Below, one piece after another: positions 18,639 through 27,764 of a stretch of DNA of 37,290 nucleotides. This stretch comes from Burkholderiaceae bacterium (lineage in GTDB: Bacteria; Pseudomonadota; Gammaproteobacteria; Burkholderiales; Burkholderiaceae_B): positions 1 through 37,290 of the forward strand of contig SKIZ01000158.1 of the NCBI GenBank assembly GCA_007116135.1. The letters run 5' to 3'. Numbering within the stretch: position 1 is the first letter of the stretch; every line of letters begins with the position of its first letter. The notes under the pieces were generated by a model. The model searched no databases, was not told the DNA's origin, and saw only the letters and a program-made list of their open reading frames with translations. A program made the translations under genes and the position numbers.

Positions 18639-19538
18639 TTGGTCACAGGGCAGCAACCAGAGAGCATTTCGGGCTGGGTCACGGCCTTGCAATCGGCGGG
18701 CTACTTCGCGCAGCGAAGCTTGGCCACCGCAGTGCATTTATCCACCAAGCTGTGTCGACCTTTGCTTTTAGAGGGCGACCCCGGTGTAGGCAAAACGGCC
18801 TTGGCCAAAGCGCTTGCGACTGTCACCGGTCGCGAGTTAATCCGGTTGCAATGCTATGACGGCTTAGAGCAGCGCGACGCACTGTACGAGTGGAACTATG
18901 CCGCCCAGCTCATACATCTGAAAGCGGCCGAGTCATCGCGCTCGACCGAGCAAATGGAACAAGAAGTCTATCAGGCACGCTATCTGATCAAGCGGCCGTT
19001 GCTGCAAGCGTTGCAATGTCCAGGCGCCGGTGCCGTGCTGTTGATTGACGAAGTTGACCGCGCTGATGAGCCCTTTGAGGCTTTGTTGCTTGAATATCTC
19101 GGAGAGTACCAAGTCAGCATCCCAGAGCTAGGCGCAATCACGGCACAAACACCGCCACTGACCATTCTGACTAGCAACCGTACTCGTGACTTAAATGACG
19201 CGGTCAAGCGCCGATGTCTCTACCACTGGGTTGACTACCCAGACCGAGAGCGCGAATTGGCCATCATCGCCAGTCACGTCCCGGGCATCGATCGCCAACT
19301 CAGCCAGCAGGTCACCGATTTCGTGCAACGACTGCGTCAGGCGCCGCACGTCGATGCCTTTAGCCGCGCACCCGGGGTGGCCGAAAGCGTTCAGTGGGCC
19401 AAGGCGCTCGTGGCGCTTGACACGCTCAAGCTCGATCCGGAAGTTATCGAAAGCACTGCAGGCGTTTTATTCAAACAGCGCGATGATATCGCGGCCCTTG
19501 AGCCCATGCTGCCAAGCTTACTGACACCACAGGCTTAG
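18639..19538 (+). CDS. coxD: MoxR-family AAA+ ATPase (CoxD-type), TTG start
   Basis: Walker A LEGDPGVGKTALAKAL, Walker B VLLIDEVDRADEPFEALLLEYL; AGGAG at 18628-18632 upstream of TTG 18639. Confidence 0.88.
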   Translation: MVTGQQPESISGWVTALQSAGYFAQRSLATAVHLSTKLCRPLLLEGDPGVGKTALAKALATVTGRELIRLQCYDGLEQRDALYEWNYAAQLIHLKAAESSRSTEQMEQEVYQARYLIKRPLLQALQCPGAGAVLLIDEVDRADEPFEALLLEYLGEYQVSIPELGAITAQTPPLTILTSNRTRDLNDAVKRRCLYHWVDYPDRERELAIIASHVPGIDRQLSQQVTDFVQRLRQAPHVDAFSRAPGVAESVQWAKALVALDTLKLDPEVIESTAGVLFKQRDDIAALEPMLPSLLTPQA

Positions 19539-19542
19539 TCGC

Positions 19543-20724
19543 ATGGTGCTCGGCGATGCGCGCAGTGGCAAGCTGACAGAGAATTTGACCGGCTTTGGGC
19601 GAATGTTAAGACGTGCTGGGCTGCCCATCGATACCGCCCGAATCAGTCTGGCTCACCAAGCACTCGGTCTGATTGATCTTGGCGACAAAACAGATGTGCG
19701 CGCCGCTTTAGGTACGGTCTTTGTCAGCCGCGAACAAGACCAATTGGTGTTTGACGAATTATTTGAGGCCTACTTTAAAGACCCACAAATCGCCAAACAG
19801 CTCATGGCCCAATTGCTGCCGCAGGCCAAAGCACCGAGCCCGGCGACAAACCGTCGGGCTCGCACACAAGAGGCACTCCAAGCGCCTAAAGCTGCCAGTG
19901 CGAGCAAGCCCACCGCCGAGCAAAAGATAGAGCTTGACGCAGCCATGAGTGCAAGTGATCAAGCCAGACTGCGTCATGCTGATTTCAATACACTGAGCGC
20001 CAGCGAGTTCTTGTTGATTGAACAGCTCGTGCGCGATATTGCCCTGCCCTTGCCTGCGCACGCGACCCGCCGGCGGCGCGGCGCACGCGCAGGCGACCGC
20101 CTGCATTGGCCTAAGCTGATGCAAACCATTGGTCGCTATGCTGGCGAGGTGATCGATTTACCAATGAGCCAACGTCGAGCCCAAGAGTTGCCTTTGCTTG
20201 TTTTAATTGACGTCTCGGGCTCTATGGAGCGTTATGCCCGGCTCATGTTGGCTTTTTTGCACCGGGCAACCTACCGTAAGGAACGCCATGTGTTTGCGTT
20301 TGGTACGCAACTGACCTGTCTGGATCGTGCCTTCGATCAAGCCGACAGCGACGAGATGTTGCGCCTAGCAAACCTGGCGGTGGCTGATTTTGGTGGCGGC
20401 ACTCGCCTTGGCCAAGCGCTGCAGTCGATCCGGGAGAATCACCGCCATACCGTGATTGGCAATCGCACTTTGGTACTTCTCATCACCGATGGACTCGACA
20501 CAGGCGAGCCCGATGCCCTGCAAAAGGAGCTCAGGTGGTTGACGCAGCAAGCCAAAACCAGCGTGTGGCTCAACCCACTATTGCGTTACGATGGCTACGA
20601 GCCTTTGGCTGGCGGCGCCAAAGTGCTGCATCGGTTTGTTGACCAGATGCTGGCGATTCACAATCTTGAGCATTTAAAGATGCTGGCAAGAGCCCTGGCC
20701 AGTCTCATGAAAAGAGTCAGTTAA
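19543..20724 (+). CDS. coxE: VWA domain-containing protein (CoxE-type)
   Basis: 393 aa; MIDAS motif LVLIDVSGSMERYARLMLAFLHRATYRKERHVFAFGTQLTCL. Confidence 0.9.
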   Translation: MVLGDARSGKLTENLTGFGRMLRRAGLPIDTARISLAHQALGLIDLGDKTDVRAALGTVFVSREQDQLVFDELFEAYFKDPQIAKQLMAQLLPQAKAPSPATNRRARTQEALQAPKAASASKPTAEQKIELDAAMSASDQARLRHADFNTLSASEFLLIEQLVRDIALPLPAHATRRRRGARAGDRLHWPKLMQTIGRYAGEVIDLPMSQRRAQELPLLVLIDVSGSMERYARLMLAFLHRATYRKERHVFAFGTQLTCLDRAFDQADSDEMLRLANLAVADFGGGTRLGQALQSIRENHRHTVIGNRTLVLLITDGLDTGEPDALQKELRWLTQQAKTSVWLNPLLRYDGYEPLAGGAKVLHRFVDQMLAIHNLEHLKMLARALASLMKRVS

Positions 20725-20750
20725 GCGATTCACTTCAAAGGATAACGACT

Positions 20751-21338
20751 ATGGAAATGCAAGGAACACGTCAACTCGCAGTGTCAGCCCAAAAAGCGTG
20801 GGATGCCTTGAATGATCCGCAGATTCTCAAGCAATGCATTCCCGGCTGCCAAAAGTTTGAGTTGCAATCCGAGAATGTCTACCTGACTGCAGCAGCGATC
20901 AAGATTGGACCGGTGTCTGCAAAGTTTACCGGCAAGGTCGAGCTGACCGACATTGTTGCCCCGAAATCGTACACGCTTAACTTTGAGGCCCAAGGCGGTG
21001 TGGCCGGTCACGGCAAAGGGACATCACAGGTCGAGCTCGTTGAGAATGAACAAGGTGTTGAGCTGCGCTACAACGTTCAATCCCAAGTCGGTGGCAAACT
21101 GGCGCAATTAGGACAACGGTTAATCGATGGCGCGGCCAAATCGATGGCTGACGATTTTTTCAAGCGCTTTGAAAAAGCGCTGACTGATCAAATAGCCGAG
21201 CAAACACCAGATCAAGCGGCAAGCCAAGATAGCGCCGAGTCGCCCGAGACATCTGCAACCACCTCGGGCGTGCCTCGCTGGGCATGGATTGCCATTGCCG
21301 CGGCGGTCGCGGCCGTGGTGATCCTGGTGACCCGTTGA
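20751..21338 (+). CDS. coxG: CoxG/SRPBCC family protein with C-terminal TM anchor
   Basis: 195 aa; AWDALNDPQILKQCIPGCQKFE, FTGKVELTDIVAPKSYTLNFEAQGGVAGHGKG; C-terminal WAWIAIAAAVAAVVILVTR. Confidence 0.9.
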   Translation: MEMQGTRQLAVSAQKAWDALNDPQILKQCIPGCQKFELQSENVYLTAAAIKIGPVSAKFTGKVELTDIVAPKSYTLNFEAQGGVAGHGKGTSQVELVENEQGVELRYNVQSQVGGKLAQLGQRLIDGAAKSMADDFFKRFEKALTDQIAEQTPDQAASQDSAESPETSATTSGVPRWAWIAIAAAVAAVVILVTR

Positions 21339-21374
21339 CGGCTTGGTAGGCTAGCGCAGCCAAGGAAACAGACC

Positions 21375-22391
21375 ATGCAAAACCAGGATGTCATCGTTTT
21401 AGAGCGCCTGAAACAATGGCGCGATCAGGCCGAGCATGCCGTGCTGGTGACGGTCATGCGCACGTGGGGCTCATCGCCACGTCCGATTGGCTCAATCATG
21501 GCCATGTCGCAAACGGGGGCAGTGGTGGGGTCCGTCTCCGGTGGTTGTATCGAGGACGACTTGATTCGCGAATTCACCGGCAACACCAGTCAAAATCAAA
21601 CGCCAACGCCGATGACCGGTCAACCCAGGCGCATGCGCTACGGCATCTCGGCTGACGAAGCCCATCGGTTTGGACTGCCGTGTGGCGGCACATTGGAGCT
21701 GCTCTTGGAGTTCAATCCGGATGCGCAAATCCTCGATGATTTACTGCAGCGCTTAAAGGCTGGCAAACTGGTCAGACGAGTCACTGACCTTCAAACCGGC
21801 GAGGTCACTTTAGAGGATACGGATACGGCAGATAGCCTGCGCGTGAGCGAAACGGCGCTCATCAATACGTTTGGCCCTGCTTATCGAATGCTCCTCATTG
21901 GCGCAGGCCAGCTTGGTGAGTACATCGCGACCATGGCTATTTTCAATGGCTTTAGTGTCACAGTCTGCGATCCCCGACAAGAGTATGCCTCAGGCTGGAC
22001 GACCACCGGTGTTGAGCGCATGAACGATTGGCCCGATGACGCCGTGCGGCTTTTTAAGCCTGATCGACGCACCTGCGTGCTGGCGCTCACACACGACCCC
22101 AAGCTTGACGACCTCGCCTTGCTTGAGGCGCTCGAGACCGAAGCGTTCTATATCGGTGCGATTGGGTCGCGCGCCAATAACGCGGCACGGCGCCAACGCA
22201 TGATCGAACACTTTGAGCAAACCGAGCAATCTTTGGCGCGGCTGCGTGGACCCATTGGCGTCTACATCGGCAGCAAGACACCGGCCGAGATTGCGGTGAG
22301 CGTTATGGCAGAGGTGCTCGCTGTAAAAAATGCGGTGCCACTGCCACCGGAGGTGAATGTCGCTCACGCCAAGTCAGTCAAAGAGCAATAA
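21375..22391 (+). CDS. XdhC/CoxI (CoxF) family molybdenum-cofactor maturation protein
   Basis: 338 aa; TWGSSPRPIGSIMAMSQTGAVVGSVSGGCIEDDLI, LLIGAGQLGEYIA, FYIGAIGSRANNAARRQRM, IGVYIGSKTPAEIAVSVMAEVLAVKN. Confidence 0.9.
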   Translation: MQNQDVIVLERLKQWRDQAEHAVLVTVMRTWGSSPRPIGSIMAMSQTGAVVGSVSGGCIEDDLIREFTGNTSQNQTPTPMTGQPRRMRYGISADEAHRFGLPCGGTLELLLEFNPDAQILDDLLQRLKAGKLVRRVTDLQTGEVTLEDTDTADSLRVSETALINTFGPAYRMLLIGAGQLGEYIATMAIFNGFSVTVCDPRQEYASGWTTTGVERMNDWPDDAVRLFKPDRRTCVLALTHDPKLDDLALLEALETEAFYIGAIGSRANNAARRQRMIEHFEQTEQSLARLRGPIGVYIGSKTPAEIAVSVMAEVLAVKNAVPLPPEVNVAHAKSVKEQ

Positions 22392-22396
22392 GTCTG

Positions 22397-23023
22397 CTAG
22401 GCCGGTTTGGGCGCCTTTTGCATGATGGTCTTAAAGAGCGACGACTCCACCCATTGGGATAACCACGCTTGAACCGTTGTAGGCACGTCGGACTCAAACC
22501 AGTCAAGCTGTACACCAGCGAACTGACGCACAAACGGGAAGATAGCGACGTCATGCAAACTAGCGCGCTCGCCACCGATAAACGGTTGATGACTGAGCAC
22601 CTCAGCGAGTGGGTCGATTAAGGCGGCCATCGCTTGTGCCCGGGCTTGCGCCGGATCCAGATCCATAAATCGTGATGAGTACTTGTATTGATCAAGTGCT
22701 TGCTTAAAGGGCCCATCGGTCTGCGCAAGCAGTCTTTGCGCCACCGGCTCATGCGCTCGATCTAACCAGCCAAGGGGATCATGTTGCGCCAGCGCCCAAT
22801 GCATGATGTCTATGCTCTCATCGATCACCTCACCATTGCTTAGGCAAAGCACTGGTACGGTTGCCTTGGGAGATACCCTAATTAAATGCGCCGGCTTGTG
22901 GCGCAAATCGATCTCCACGGTGCGGCAAGTGATTTTTGCAACGTAAAGCGCCATGCGGGCTCGCATCGCATACGGGCAGCGACGATAGGAATAAAGCAGT
23001 GGGTTATTGAGCGGTTCAATCAT
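22397..23023 (-). CDS. Glutathione S-transferase family protein
   Basis: 208 aa; LYSYRRCPYAMRARMALYVAKI thioredoxin-fold N-terminus, RVSPKATVPVL, EVIDESIDIM. Confidence 0.82.
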   Translation of the reverse strand: MIEPLNNPLLYSYRRCPYAMRARMALYVAKITCRTVEIDLRHKPAHLIRVSPKATVPVLCLSNGEVIDESIDIMHWALAQHDPLGWLDRAHEPVAQRLLAQTDGPFKQALDQYKYSSRFMDLDPAQARAQAMAALIDPLAEVLSHQPFIGGERASLHDVAIFPFVRQFAGVQLDWFESDVPTTVQAWLSQWVESSLFKTIMQKAPKPA

Positions 23024-23084
23024 GAAGCAAATTTTGCAATGCGGGATTCTCAGGCGTTTTCATTTGTCGATCATAATAAATTTG

Positions 23085-23308
23085 GTTAGACTTCAGAAGT
23101 CTTAACAAGCTTAATGCTTGTGTCTGTTCGCAGACACGTCGAGCTTCAATACTGAAGCGTCAAAATGCCCCATATGGTTGGGGTGTCAAATGCTCATCGA
23201 GCAGCCGTTGTCCTCTACATGGGCATACCAGCGTCACTTGTGACGCATCACCGGACAAGTTGTGCATGGCCATTGGTCGCGCAACGACTTTCAGACTGAA
23301 ACGTCTGA
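23085..23308 (+). ncRNA. Candidate structured leader/sRNA: tandem short hairpins before the proX-like gene
   Basis: Eye-detected inverted repeats: GTTAGACTTC-A-GAAGTCTTAAC (23085-23105, one bulge), CAAGC-TTAAT-GCTTG (23106-23120), GTGTCTG-TTCG-CAGACAC (23120-23137), GCTTCA-ATAC-TGAAGC (23143-23158), CCCCA-TATGGT-TGGGG (23168-23183), TGCTC-ATC-GAGCA (23191-23203), GCGTCA-CTTG-TGACGC (23231-23246), GTTGTGC...GCGCAAC (23259-23285, one G-T), TCAGAC-TGAAAC-GTCTGA (23291-23308). Strand and RNA identity are inferred. Confidence 0.45.
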
Positions 23309-23351
23309 TCGTGTCCACAAGCCATTCTGGTTTGAGAACGGAGAGAAAACA

Positions 23352-24362
23352 ATGAAATTGATGAAATCCTCATATCTGGCCGCCATGGCGATTGCTGTCA
23401 GTGCGCTTGGCACGGGCGTGGCCAAAGCCGAATGTGGCAATGTCACCATCGCTGAGATGAACTGGGCTAGCGCCCAAGCAGCCGCACGGGTTGACGAGTT
23501 TATCCTCAAGCACGGTTATGGCTGCGACGCCGAGACGGTTCCTGGCGACACGGTCCCGACAGCTGCTTCAATGACCGAGCGCGCCCGTCCAGACATCGCA
23601 CCGGAACTGTGGATGAACACAGTCAAAGAACAAGTCGATCGTGCAGTCGCTGAAGGCCGCTTGACCGTGGTCGGTGACGTCCTCGAAGATCCAGCAACCA
23701 ACGCCGGTGAAGGCTGGTGGATCCCGCGCTACATGCTCGAGCAACATCCGGAGTTGGCGACCATCGAAGGTGTCAAGCAAAACGCCGCCCTCTTTAGAGA
23801 CCCGGAAGATCCAACCAAAGGCCGCGTCATCGGCTGCCCAGCTGGTTGGGCCTGCCAAATCATCACGGACAACCTGTTTCGCGCATTCGACATGGAGCAG
23901 GCTGGCTTTAACCTGGTCGACCCAGGCTCGGGCGCTGCCTTAGGTGGCGCCATCACGCGCGCCTACAACCGCGGTGAAGGCGTTATCGCCTACTACTGGG
24001 CACCCACTTCGCTTCTGTCCAAGCTCGATTTGGTTCGTGTCGACCTCGGTGCGCATGACGCCGCAACCTTTGAGAGCTGCATCGCTGTGGCTAACTGCCC
24101 CGACCCACAACCGAACAACTTCGCAGTCTCGGAAATCAAAACGGTGGTGGCCACTGACTTTGCCAATCGCAACCCCGAGACCATTGAGTACCTCAAAGCA
24201 CGTGTTTGGAGTGCTGAGGCCTTCGGTCAAGTGCTCGAGTACATGGAAGAGCAACAAGCCGACGGTCAGGCCGGTGCACGGTGGTTCCTTGAGAACCATG
24301 AAGATGTCTGGAGCCAATGGCTGCCAGCCGACGTTGCTGCTCGGGTCAAAGCAGCACTGTAA
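23352..24362 (+). CDS. Glycine betaine/choline-type ABC transporter substrate-binding protein (ProX/OpuAC-like)
   Basis: From ATG 23352 MKLMKSSYLAAMAIAVSALGTGVAKAE signal peptide; CGNVTIAEMNWASAQAAARVDEFILKHGYGCDAETVPGDTVPTAASM. Followed by ProW- and ProV-like genes. Confidence 0.87.
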   Translation: MKLMKSSYLAAMAIAVSALGTGVAKAECGNVTIAEMNWASAQAAARVDEFILKHGYGCDAETVPGDTVPTAASMTERARPDIAPELWMNTVKEQVDRAVAEGRLTVVGDVLEDPATNAGEGWWIPRYMLEQHPELATIEGVKQNAALFRDPEDPTKGRVIGCPAGWACQIITDNLFRAFDMEQAGFNLVDPGSGAALGGAITRAYNRGEGVIAYYWAPTSLLSKLDLVRVDLGAHDAATFESCIAVANCPDPQPNNFAVSEIKTVVATDFANRNPETIEYLKARVWSAEAFGQVLEYMEEQQADGQAGARWFLENHEDVWSQWLPADVAARVKAAL

Positions 24363-24451: not shown

Positions 24452-25339
24452 ATGATCTGGTCCAATGAATTTCCACAGATTGCAGACAACACGCTCAGAG
24501 CGTTAACGCGCTCAATCGATGCGGGCTATCTGGCGTTTTCTAGGGCGTACGGCGGCTACATCGAATCTTTCTTTGAGCCGCTGTTGCACTTTTTAATTTG
24601 GTTTGAACGTCTGCTCATTGGCTCACCTTGGTGGCTGGTGATCGGTATCACCGCCGCTGTTGGCTACCTTGCCTCACGCAGCATCAAATTATTCATTGGC
24701 ATTGCCCTGGCCTTGTTTGTCATCGGTCTATTTGGCATGTGGGACAACACCATGCGCACGATGGCGATGATCCTCGTGTGCACCCTTTTATCTATTCTGA
24801 TTGGCATCCCAATCGGGATATTCATGTCGCGCTCAGCGCGCGGCCAACGCATGATCTTGCCTGTGCTGGACGTGATGCAAACCATGCCAAGCTTTGTCTA
24901 CCTCATTCCTGTGGTGATGTTGCTTGGCATTGGCCGGGTGCCAGGACTGATTGCTGTGGTGATTTATGCCATCCCGCCTGTCATCCGCCTGACCAACCTA
25001 GGCATCCGCTTGGTTGAGAAAGAGGCCCTTGAGGCCGCCGATGCCTTTGGCGCAAGCCGCCTGCAAAAGCTATTGCGCGTTCAGCTACCGCTGGCACTAC
25101 CGAACATCATGGCCGGCATTAATCAAACCATCATGATGGCCTTGGCCATGGTGGTGATCGCCTCCATGATCGGTGTACGCGGTCTTGGGCAGCCTGTTTT
25201 ACAGGCGGTCACTAACCAATACTTCGCAATGGGGCTCTTTAACGGCATCGCCGTGGTGGTCTTGGCGATTATTTTTGATCGCATCACCCAAAGCTTTGGT
25301 TTCCGCCTGCAAAGGCACCGTGAAGGGGCGCGCCAATGA
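24452..25339 (+). CDS. Betaine-type ABC transporter permease (ProW-like)
   Basis: 295 aa; EALEAADAFGASRLQKLLRVQLPLALPNIMAGINQTIMMALAMVVIASMIGVRGLG permease EAA-type loop. Confidence 0.9.
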   Translation: MIWSNEFPQIADNTLRALTRSIDAGYLAFSRAYGGYIESFFEPLLHFLIWFERLLIGSPWWLVIGITAAVGYLASRSIKLFIGIALALFVIGLFGMWDNTMRTMAMILVCTLLSILIGIPIGIFMSRSARGQRMILPVLDVMQTMPSFVYLIPVVMLLGIGRVPGLIAVVIYAIPPVIRLTNLGIRLVEKEALEAADAFGASRLQKLLRVQLPLALPNIMAGINQTIMMALAMVVIASMIGVRGLGQPVLQAVTNQYFAMGLFNGIAVVVLAIIFDRITQSFGFRLQRHREGARQ

Positions 25340-26388
25340 ACAACGACACCATCATTTCGATTAAGAATCTGTATAAGGTGTTTGGCAAAAACCCCAAAGG
25401 CGCCATGAAACTTGTCCATCAAGGCATGGGCAAAGATGAATTGCTCGAGCAAACGGGTCACGTCATTGGCTTAAATAATGTCAACCTCGACATGGAGCGC
25501 CATCGCATCCAGGTGGTGATGGGCTTATCGGGTTCGGGCAAGTCCACCTTGATTCGACATATCAATCGCTTAATCGCACCGACCGAGGGTCAAATCCTGG
25601 TTGACGGCGACGATGTCTTGCAGATGAATGTCGATGCACTGCGTAACTTTCGTCGCCACAAAGTGTCGATGGTGTTCCAAAAGTTCGCGCTGTTTCCCCA
25701 TCGCACCGTCATCGAGAACGTCGGCTACGGGCTCGAGAACCAGGGCTTGGACAAGCAAAAGATACGCGATGTGGCTGAACGCTGGATATCGCGCGTCGGG
25801 CTGTCTGGATTTGAGACCCATTACCCAGGCCAGCTCTCCGGTGGCATGCAGCAGCGCGTTGGCTTGGCACGCGCGTTGGCAACTGACGCCGATATTTTAT
25901 TGATGGATGAGGCCTTCTCGGCACTTGATCCACTCATTCGCACCGAGATGCAGAACATTTTGCTGGATCTGCAAAATGAACTCGAGAAGACCATTGTCTT
26001 CATCACGCACGACCTCGATGAGGCGTTGCACATCGGTGACACCATTGCGATTTTGCGCGATGGTGAGATCATCCAAAATGACGACCCGCAAAATATCCTG
26101 ATGAAGCCAGCTGACACTTACGTCGCTAACTTTATGAAGGACATCAATCGCGCACGCGTCTTGCGCGTGCGCGCGATCATGAAACCCATTGAGCCTGACG
26201 ACCAAGGTCCGGTGGTCAAGGGCAACACCACGATTGAGGCGGCGCTGCAGATCTTTGCTGAAACCGAGGGTGACCGGTTAATCATTACCGATCGCCGCGG
26301 CGAGCGAGTCGGTCGTCTGACCGTTGAGGACCTGATTCGCGGAATGCGGCGGCCAACAACGGCTGAAATCGAGTCGGCACAGACCTAA
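25336..26388 (+). CDS. Betaine-type ABC transporter ATP-binding protein with C-terminal CBS-like region (ProV-like)
   Basis: 350 aa; VMGLSGSGKSTLIRHINRLI Walker A, QLSGGMQQRVGLARALATDADILLMDEAFSALDPLIR. 4-nt overlap with the permease gene. Confidence 0.93.
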   Translation: MNNDTIISIKNLYKVFGKNPKGAMKLVHQGMGKDELLEQTGHVIGLNNVNLDMERHRIQVVMGLSGSGKSTLIRHINRLIAPTEGQILVDGDDVLQMNVDALRNFRRHKVSMVFQKFALFPHRTVIENVGYGLENQGLDKQKIRDVAERWISRVGLSGFETHYPGQLSGGMQQRVGLARALATDADILLMDEAFSALDPLIRTEMQNILLDLQNELEKTIVFITHDLDEALHIGDTIAILRDGEIIQNDDPQNILMKPADTYVANFMKDINRARVLRVRAIMKPIEPDDQGPVVKGNTTIEAALQIFAETEGDRLIITDRRGERVGRLTVEDLIRGMRRPTTAEIESAQT

Positions 26389-26480
26389 TTGCATTGGCTG
26401 GCATGAATTAATAACCAAGAACTATTTCACAAACTGCGCCTAGCTGGTTAAGGTGATGACGTCACTTCAGGAGATGTTTG

Positions 26481-27764
26481 ATGAAACTCGAAACCATTGC
26501 CGTGCACGGCGGCTTTAGCCCCGACCCCACCACCAAAGCGGTGGCCGTACCGATCTATCAAACCGTCGCCTACGCCTTTGACAACGCCCAACATGGCGCT
26601 GACTTGTTTGACCTGAAGGTGCCCGGCAACATCTATACCCGGATCATGAATCCAACCAACGATGTGCTGGAAAAAAGAGTCGCTGAGCTAGAAGGCGGTA
26701 TCGCGGGCCTGGCTGTCGCCTCCGGCATGTCAGCCATCAGTTATGCGATTCAAACAATCACCGAGGCCGGTGACAACATCATTTCAGCCAGCACGCTCTA
26801 CGGCGGGACCTACAACCTATTTGCCCACACCATGCCGCAGCAAGGCATCGAGGTGCGCTTTGCCGATTCACGTGATCCAGCCAGTTTTGCAAGCCTAATC
26901 GACGACAAGACCAAAGCCATCTACTGCGAGTCTATTGGCAATCCACTGGGCAATGTGACCGATATCGCCGCCCTTGCCAAGGTGGCCCATGACCACGGCA
27001 TACCGCTGATTGTTGACAATACCGTGCCAAGCCCAGCTCTTTTGCGACCCATCGAGCATGGCGCTGACATCGTGGTCCATTCCCTGACCAAATACATGGG
27101 TGGACACGGCACGACTGTGGCCGGCGTCATTGTCGATAGTGGCAAGTTCCCCTGGGCGCAGCACAAAGAGCGGTTTAAGCGTTTGAATGAACCAGACGTG
27201 AGCTACCACGGGGTGGTCTACACCGAAGCGCTAGGACCGGCGGCTTTTATCGGTCGAGCCCGTGTGGTGCCCTTGCGAAACACGGGCGCGGCGCTGTCGC
27301 CCTTTAACGCCTTTTTAATTCTGCAGGGTATCGAGACGTTGGCCCTGCGCATGGAGCGTATCTGCGAGAACACGCTGCACATTGCCAAGTACCTTGAGCA
27401 ACACGATAAAGTTGCCAGCGTACAATACGCGGGCCTGCCCAACCATCCTGATCATGCGATCGTGCAGCGGCAAATGAATGGCAAAGCCTCAGGGATTTTG
27501 TCGTTTGAACTCAAAGCACCCCCAGGGCAAGCACGCGCAGCCGGTGCGCGCTTTCTCGATGCTCTAGAACTCTTTACCCGTCTAGTCAATATTGGTGATG
27601 CGAAATCGCTAGCAACGCACCCGGCATCGACCACGCACCGACAGCTTGATGGGCCAGAACTGGAAAAAGCAGGCGTCTCCGAGGGCATGGTGCGCTTAGC
27701 CGTTGGGATCGAGCACATCGATGACTTGATGGTCGATCTCCAACAGGCACTAGACCAGGTCTAG
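26481..27764 (+). CDS. O-acetylhomoserine aminocarboxypropyltransferase/cysteine synthase (MetY-like)
   Basis: ATG 26481, RBS CAGGAG 26468-26473; MKLETIAVHGGFSPDPTTKAVAVPIYQTVAYAFDNAQHGADLFDLKVPGNIYTRIMNPTN, VVHSLTKYMGGHGT PLP-Lys region. Confidence 0.92.
   Translation: MKLETIAVHGGFSPDPTTKAVAVPIYQTVAYAFDNAQHGADLFDLKVPGNIYTRIMNPTNDVLEKRVAELEGGIAGLAVASGMSAISYAIQTITEAGDNIISASTLYGGTYNLFAHTMPQQGIEVRFADSRDPASFASLIDDKTKAIYCESIGNPLGNVTDIAALAKVAHDHGIPLIVDNTVPSPALLRPIEHGADIVVHSLTKYMGGHGTTVAGVIVDSGKFPWAQHKERFKRLNEPDVSYHGVVYTEALGPAAFIGRARVVPLRNTGAALSPFNAFLILQGIETLALRMERICENTLHIAKYLEQHDKVASVQYAGLPNHPDHAIVQRQMNGKASGILSFELKAPPGQARAAGARFLDALELFTRLVNIGDAKSLATHPASTTHRQLDGPELEKAGVSEGMVRLAVGIEHIDDLMVDLQQALDQV

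Follow-up and report, generated by a model that had tools for sequence, protein, structure and literature searches.

The array of short hairpins upstream of an ABC transporter operon in a 37,290-nucleotide stretch of Burkholderiaceae DNA (the window) is best read as an undescribed, lineage-specific structured 5' leader of about 250 nt, which would be transcribed together with a DmpX-type (DMSP or betaine) operon and act in cis. On the strength of sequence comparisons, we put the probability of this reading at roughly 0.7.

The array lies between the start of a GST gene on the minus strand (23023) and the start of the binding-protein gene (23352), both located where an earlier note on this DNA had put them. 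That note had reported 8-9 hairpins in about 225 nt, and the stems it named were all found in place, reading directly in the window as GTGTCTG-TTCG-CAGACAC (23120-23137), GCTTCA-ATAC-TGAAGC (23143-23158), GCGTCA-CTTG-TGACGC (23231-23246) and TCAGAC-TGAAAC-GTCTGA (23291-23308). Counted as non-overlapping, perfect hairpins with a stem of at least 5 and a loop of 3-8, the array holds 8, as against 1.4 expected and a maximum of 5 among shuffles (n=1000). The segment 23085-23351 folds at -97.7 kcal/mol, whereas its dinucleotide shuffles reach -75.5 +/- 4.9 (z -4.5), and 0 of 200 such shuffles fold as well. No other place in the 37-kb window comes near 23085-23308 in hairpin density. In a wider scan, covering 400 kb of the complete genome of a relative (G008), the orthologous array ranks among the top hairpin sites; another hairpin-dense site in this sample, with 6 hairpins in 240 nt, lies at L139:840-1240.

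The extent first proposed for the array, 23085-23308, holds only in part: the hairpins are real and nine of them (23120-23334) are kept in relatives, while the two 5'-most are not conserved. The latter, at 23088-23102 and 23105-23121, are inverted repeats in the window whose pairs are not kept in relatives, and they were rejected as conserved elements. From 5' to 3', the features of the leader and its operon are as follows.

23064-23092, + strand: candidate promoter, TTGTCG (23064-23069), 17 nt, TAGACT (23087-23092)
23120-23137, + strand: hairpin HA, 7 bp with a TTCG loop; double changes between relatives in 4 of 7 pairs
23143-23158, + strand: hairpin HB, 6 bp; 2 pairs change on both sides
23165-23186, + strand: hairpin HC, 8 bp, G.U pairs included; 3 pairs change on both sides; no counterpart in G005 and G003
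23191-23203, + strand: hairpin HD, TGCTCATCGAGCA; stem near-invariant in eight taxa and present in the distant G006 too
23205-23207, + strand: conserved CCG, with alternative partners in CGG 23252-23254 (closing HE and HF) or CGG 23339-23341 (Shine-Dalgarno)
23209-23225, + strand: hairpin HE; one double change, plus G.U/A-U changes
23231-23246, + strand: hairpin HF, 6 bp; 5 of 6 pairs change on both sides, with 100% of cells paired (eight sequences)
23252-23255, + strand: CGGA in invariant columns, the 3' edge of the core
23259-23285, + strand: hairpin HG, a two-part stem (23259-23265/23279-23285 and 23268-23271/23275-23278); inner-stem double changes in the clade G001/G002/L033
23291-23308, + strand: hairpin HH, 6 bp; an A-U to G.U to G-C series across the window, G007 and G008
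23318-23334, + strand: hairpin HI, 7 bp, directly 5' of the Shine-Dalgarno; a hairpin in 8 of 8 sequences, with GGTCA/TGACC instead in G005 and G003
23339-23343, + strand: Shine-Dalgarno CGGAG, the same in all 8 orthologues that have the core; AGGAG in G006
23352-24362, + strand: OpuAC-type substrate-binding protein, candidate DmpX (PF04069, E 1.2e-51; 7yle_A, E 1e-65)
24452-25339, + strand: ABC permease of the operon (PF00528), ChoW/ProW-like, under the NCBIfam cut-offs
25336-26388, + strand: ABC ATPase of the operon (PF00005; TIGR01186 above cut-off)

Close orthologues of the binding-protein gene (66-80% identity) occur in seven of eight genomes of the same genus and in one genome of another genus of the same family. 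The same ordered hairpins stand upstream of the operon in G007, G008, G001, G002, L033/G254, G005 and G003, with stem sequences that are largely different. G006 has a weaker version of the array in the same place, in which the core is only partly kept (E 0.011 for the core model in a 4-kb search), and G004 has neither the binding-protein gene nor the core. In G001 (L005/L034) and G002 (L006/L035) there are tandem binding-protein genes, each about 71-73% identical to the window protein; since the leader lies between the tandem copies, only the second is preceded by it.

Compensatory changes in orthologous upstream regions, named by the earlier note as a check, were sought in two alignments, A2 (the core, from HD to CGGA, in eight sequences) and A3 (HA to CGGA, two clades, 40 pairs). 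The counts come from few sequences, in three clades plus one, and are not independent events: in A2, standard pairs fill 96.7% of the pair cells and 13 cells carry double changes, a number reached in 0 of 500 shuffles, and in A3, 11 of the 40 pairs have changed on both sides, in 28 cells, with 96% of cells paired. Shifting the partners one to three columns out of register lowers the pairing in A2 to 22-53%, and the covariation score of A3, 0.373, compares with at most 0.165 when slid. Within clades, one-sided changes at paired positions produce G.U at 19 column pairs, as against 2 with A.C, a manual count that omits the poorly aligned hairpin H2 and favours G.U somewhat, the helices having been drawn by eye with G.U allowed. 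Because G.U is tolerated only in a + strand RNA, this bias points to the transcript. Pairing that is kept while sequence drifts between species argues for a real structured RNA, and, judging from this strong covariation, the array is one, encoded on the + strand. A long-range stem between GGAC (23253-23256) and GTCC (23313-23316) is possible in two clades and unsupported in the third, and was set aside.

The preference for G.U over A.C also speaks against a feature acting at the DNA level, such as clustered operator palindromes or repeats able to form cruciforms. HD, a nearly invariant inverted repeat of the form TGCTC-n3-GAGCA, would fit such a feature; however, the length of its spacer differs in G005 and G003, and where the 13-mer occurs elsewhere in the genus, the sites are unlike a regulon. 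Its other genomic occurrences being unlike an operator set, HD was rejected as a DNA operator, and a DNA-level function for the array appears very improbable. That many short inverted repeats lie side by side might also recall REP-like palindromes, mobile or repetitive, sitting here by chance. This origin is contradicted by the single copy of the array in its own genome and in each relative; its individual hairpins also differ in sequence from one another and its position is conserved, which leaves such an origin with almost no probability.

A covariance model built from the core (R1) finds one copy per genome, with E values from 1e-11 to 1e-17, in eight genomes, G006 being the sole transporter-bearing exception. 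Nothing convincing was found in the rest of the family, and there was no strong match in 398 genomes of the order, nor in 369 of the class, under strict filters that weak relatives could escape. The core is thus found only where the transporter occurs, always immediately 5' of its operon, with nothing comparable among about 1,000 other genomes. Matches to R1 with E 0.009-0.1 in other genera (L120-L125) have no binding-protein homologue beside them and were taken as chance. The core model likewise matches none of the leaders tested from more distant binding-protein homologues (among L037-L111). The leaders of L052, L066 and L069 (Marinomonas, Rhodobacteraceae and Celeribacter) fold more stably than shuffles, with z about -3.2 to -3.8; those of L052 and L069 have no core-model match. 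The carriers are a group of mostly uncultured Burkholderiaceae, the window itself lying in a fragmented genome. The narrow distribution of core-model matches marks the element as young or fast-evolving and lineage-bound, and it is tightly tied to a single operon.

Transcription of the array probably starts at its 5' edge. The hexamer TAGACT (23087-23092) is invariant in relatives, apart from TAAACT in G002, and in most of them a TTGNCR-like hexamer lies 17-18 nt further 5'. TAGACT is probably a -10 box, and TTGTCG-17-TAGACT looks like a sigma-70 promoter; it went unlisted in an automatic scan because only 8 of 12 positions match the consensus. This would set the start of the RNA near 23099, in which case the first hairpin of the window (23088-23102) would be partly promoter. 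No intrinsic-terminator-like site was found in 22950-23420, and so none between the array and the gene. The earlier note had left a choice between a cis-regulatory leader and a processed small RNA; the covarying array is strictly linked to the operon and lacks a terminator-like site, which favours the leader over a free small RNA. The lack of such a site also makes an effect on translation or stability likelier than attenuation.

Control of the transporter is the most likely role of the leader, going by its place and conservation. Transcription would run from the candidate promoter through the array into the operon, and the array, ending as it does at the ribosome site, might, less certainly, control translation. 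Translation control is proposed because the conserved CCG of the core can pair with either the core CGG or the CGG of the Shine-Dalgarno. In one state, the CCG and core CGG would pair; HE and HF would then be locked into a three-way junction, and the Shine-Dalgarno would stay accessible. In the other, the CCG would pair with the Shine-Dalgarno CGG and hide the ribosome site. Some signal, whether an osmolyte, ions or a protein, would shift the balance between the two states. The CCG/core CGG pairs are C-G, C-G and G-C in six taxa, and the first is U.G in two. The predicted CCG/Shine-Dalgarno pairing is partial (about 0.2-0.5) in the window, G007, G001 and G002 and negligible in G008 and L033; in G003 the Shine-Dalgarno is predicted to pair at about 0.27, through bases neighbouring the CCG. 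Among GGAG sites before long ORFs in the 400-kb G008 sample, 7 of 41 have a C in front, compared with 8 of 8 in the leaders. The CCG/CGG alternative amounts to three to five base pairs, and it lacks covariation because both partners barely vary. On these predictions, control of translation by such a switch is taken as the likeliest mechanism, one that we hold tentatively and at clearly less than even odds.

Two other mechanisms have to be weighed, and neither they nor the translation switch are mutually exclusive. Selection appears to act on the hairpins and less on their sequence, which would fit an mRNA-stability element, in which the string of hairpins shields the 5' end from RNases, or exposes it to them, and so tunes the lifetime of the transcript with osmolarity. 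Against this, the array consists of separate short hairpins with stems of 3-10 bp, and the long double-stranded stem typical of RNase III-regulated leaders is absent. The usual substrates of RNase III are longer than this. RNase III does control bdm, proU and betT mRNAs under osmotic change, and the E. coli proU and betT mRNAs, which encode osmolyte transporters, are controlled by it through RNA structure (PMC4067347 and reference 9 therein). The two cases share an osmolyte-uptake operon with RNA structure; post-transcriptional control was shown there and is proposed here, and RNase III cuts a double-stranded region (in betT within the coding sequence), whereas a leader hairpin string is found here. 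A stability element thus seems possible and rather doubtful.

The core also carries invariant unpaired stretches (CAA before HD and CGGA after HF), which, with the option of a three-way junction, would suit a riboswitch responding to the substrate of the transporter or to osmotic state through a metabolite or ion (DMSP, betaine, Na+ or c-di-AMP). A riboswitch candidate has been described before proX in saltwater bacteria: the proX (SRC-29-1) motif, with 17 representatives, mainly in Spiribacter, in which a stem further 5' can mask the ribosome site (PMC8632094). By its description, this is the closest published item. Both are structured leaders upstream of a proX-type binding-protein gene; the motif has an occludable ribosome site, while the window has the partial predicted CCG/Shine-Dalgarno pairing. 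On the other side, the earlier note had recognised no known riboswitch class, and Rfam bears this out, with no family of Rfam 15 at or above its gathering threshold in the window and only chance matches, to eukaryotic families, at the top of a lenient search (E<=10). In addition, most hairpins vary freely in sequence, which would be unusual for an aptamer, and the distribution is narrow. A riboswitch is accordingly a possible but rather unlikely mechanism. The leader is, then, of a known general kind, itself undescribed, and a regulatory function is plausible from its structure and position.

What the operon imports can be narrowed by comparison. The window binding protein has an OpuAC domain, and its best solved relative is 7yle_A (E 1e-65), which we take to be the DMSP-binding protein RnDmpX. 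The DMSP pocket of RnDmpX is made up of W35, T64, W84, E113, W152, A153, Y200 and W202 (PMC10030565), in a residue numbering that fits the 7yle_A chain, and all eight residues are identical in the aligned window protein. The NCBIfam choline and ProX models score it far under their cut-offs, and the operon order of binding protein, permease and ATPase is that of dmpXWV. Together, the match to RnDmpX, the identical pocket and the gene order make DMSP the foremost candidate for the substrate, with glycine betaine or a related compound as a possible alternative. Uptake of a betaine type, as the earlier note had it, therefore stands as to an osmolyte-type ABC operon, and is better worded as DMSP/betaine-type. 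The DmpXWV system (PMC10030565) shares with the window an RnDmpX-like binding protein with all pocket residues and the X-W-V order; the paper mentions no leader RNA, whereas the window operon has a predicted one, and its DMSP specificity is presumed from sequence likeness.

The surroundings of the operon hold further genes. Upstream of the GST gene, at 18639-22391, MoxR-type ATPase, VWA-domain, CoxG-like and XdhC-like genes stand in a row and, by their ORF translations, resemble molybdenum-hydroxylase accessory genes. Directly 3' of the transporter operon, an O-acetylhomoserine sulfhydrylase is encoded at 26478-27764 (TIGR01326 above cut-off). Next to a candidate DMSP importer, it may indicate a link to sulfur metabolism.

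The conservation of pairing with drifting sequence over some nine successive hairpins is itself unusual, and the array represents a covariation-supported RNA family, absent from Rfam, tied to a probable importer of DMSP, which is a marine osmolyte and a major marine sulfur compound. A literature search turned up no RNA that regulates a DMSP transporter, so that the leader would offer a testable entry into the control of DMSP uptake. It is conceivable, if unlikely, that the array defines a riboswitch-like or osmosensing class of leader, in which the core gates the ribosome site next to an interchangeable string of hairpins and controls DMSP uptake; if true, a DMSP transporter would for the first time be seen under control at the RNA level.
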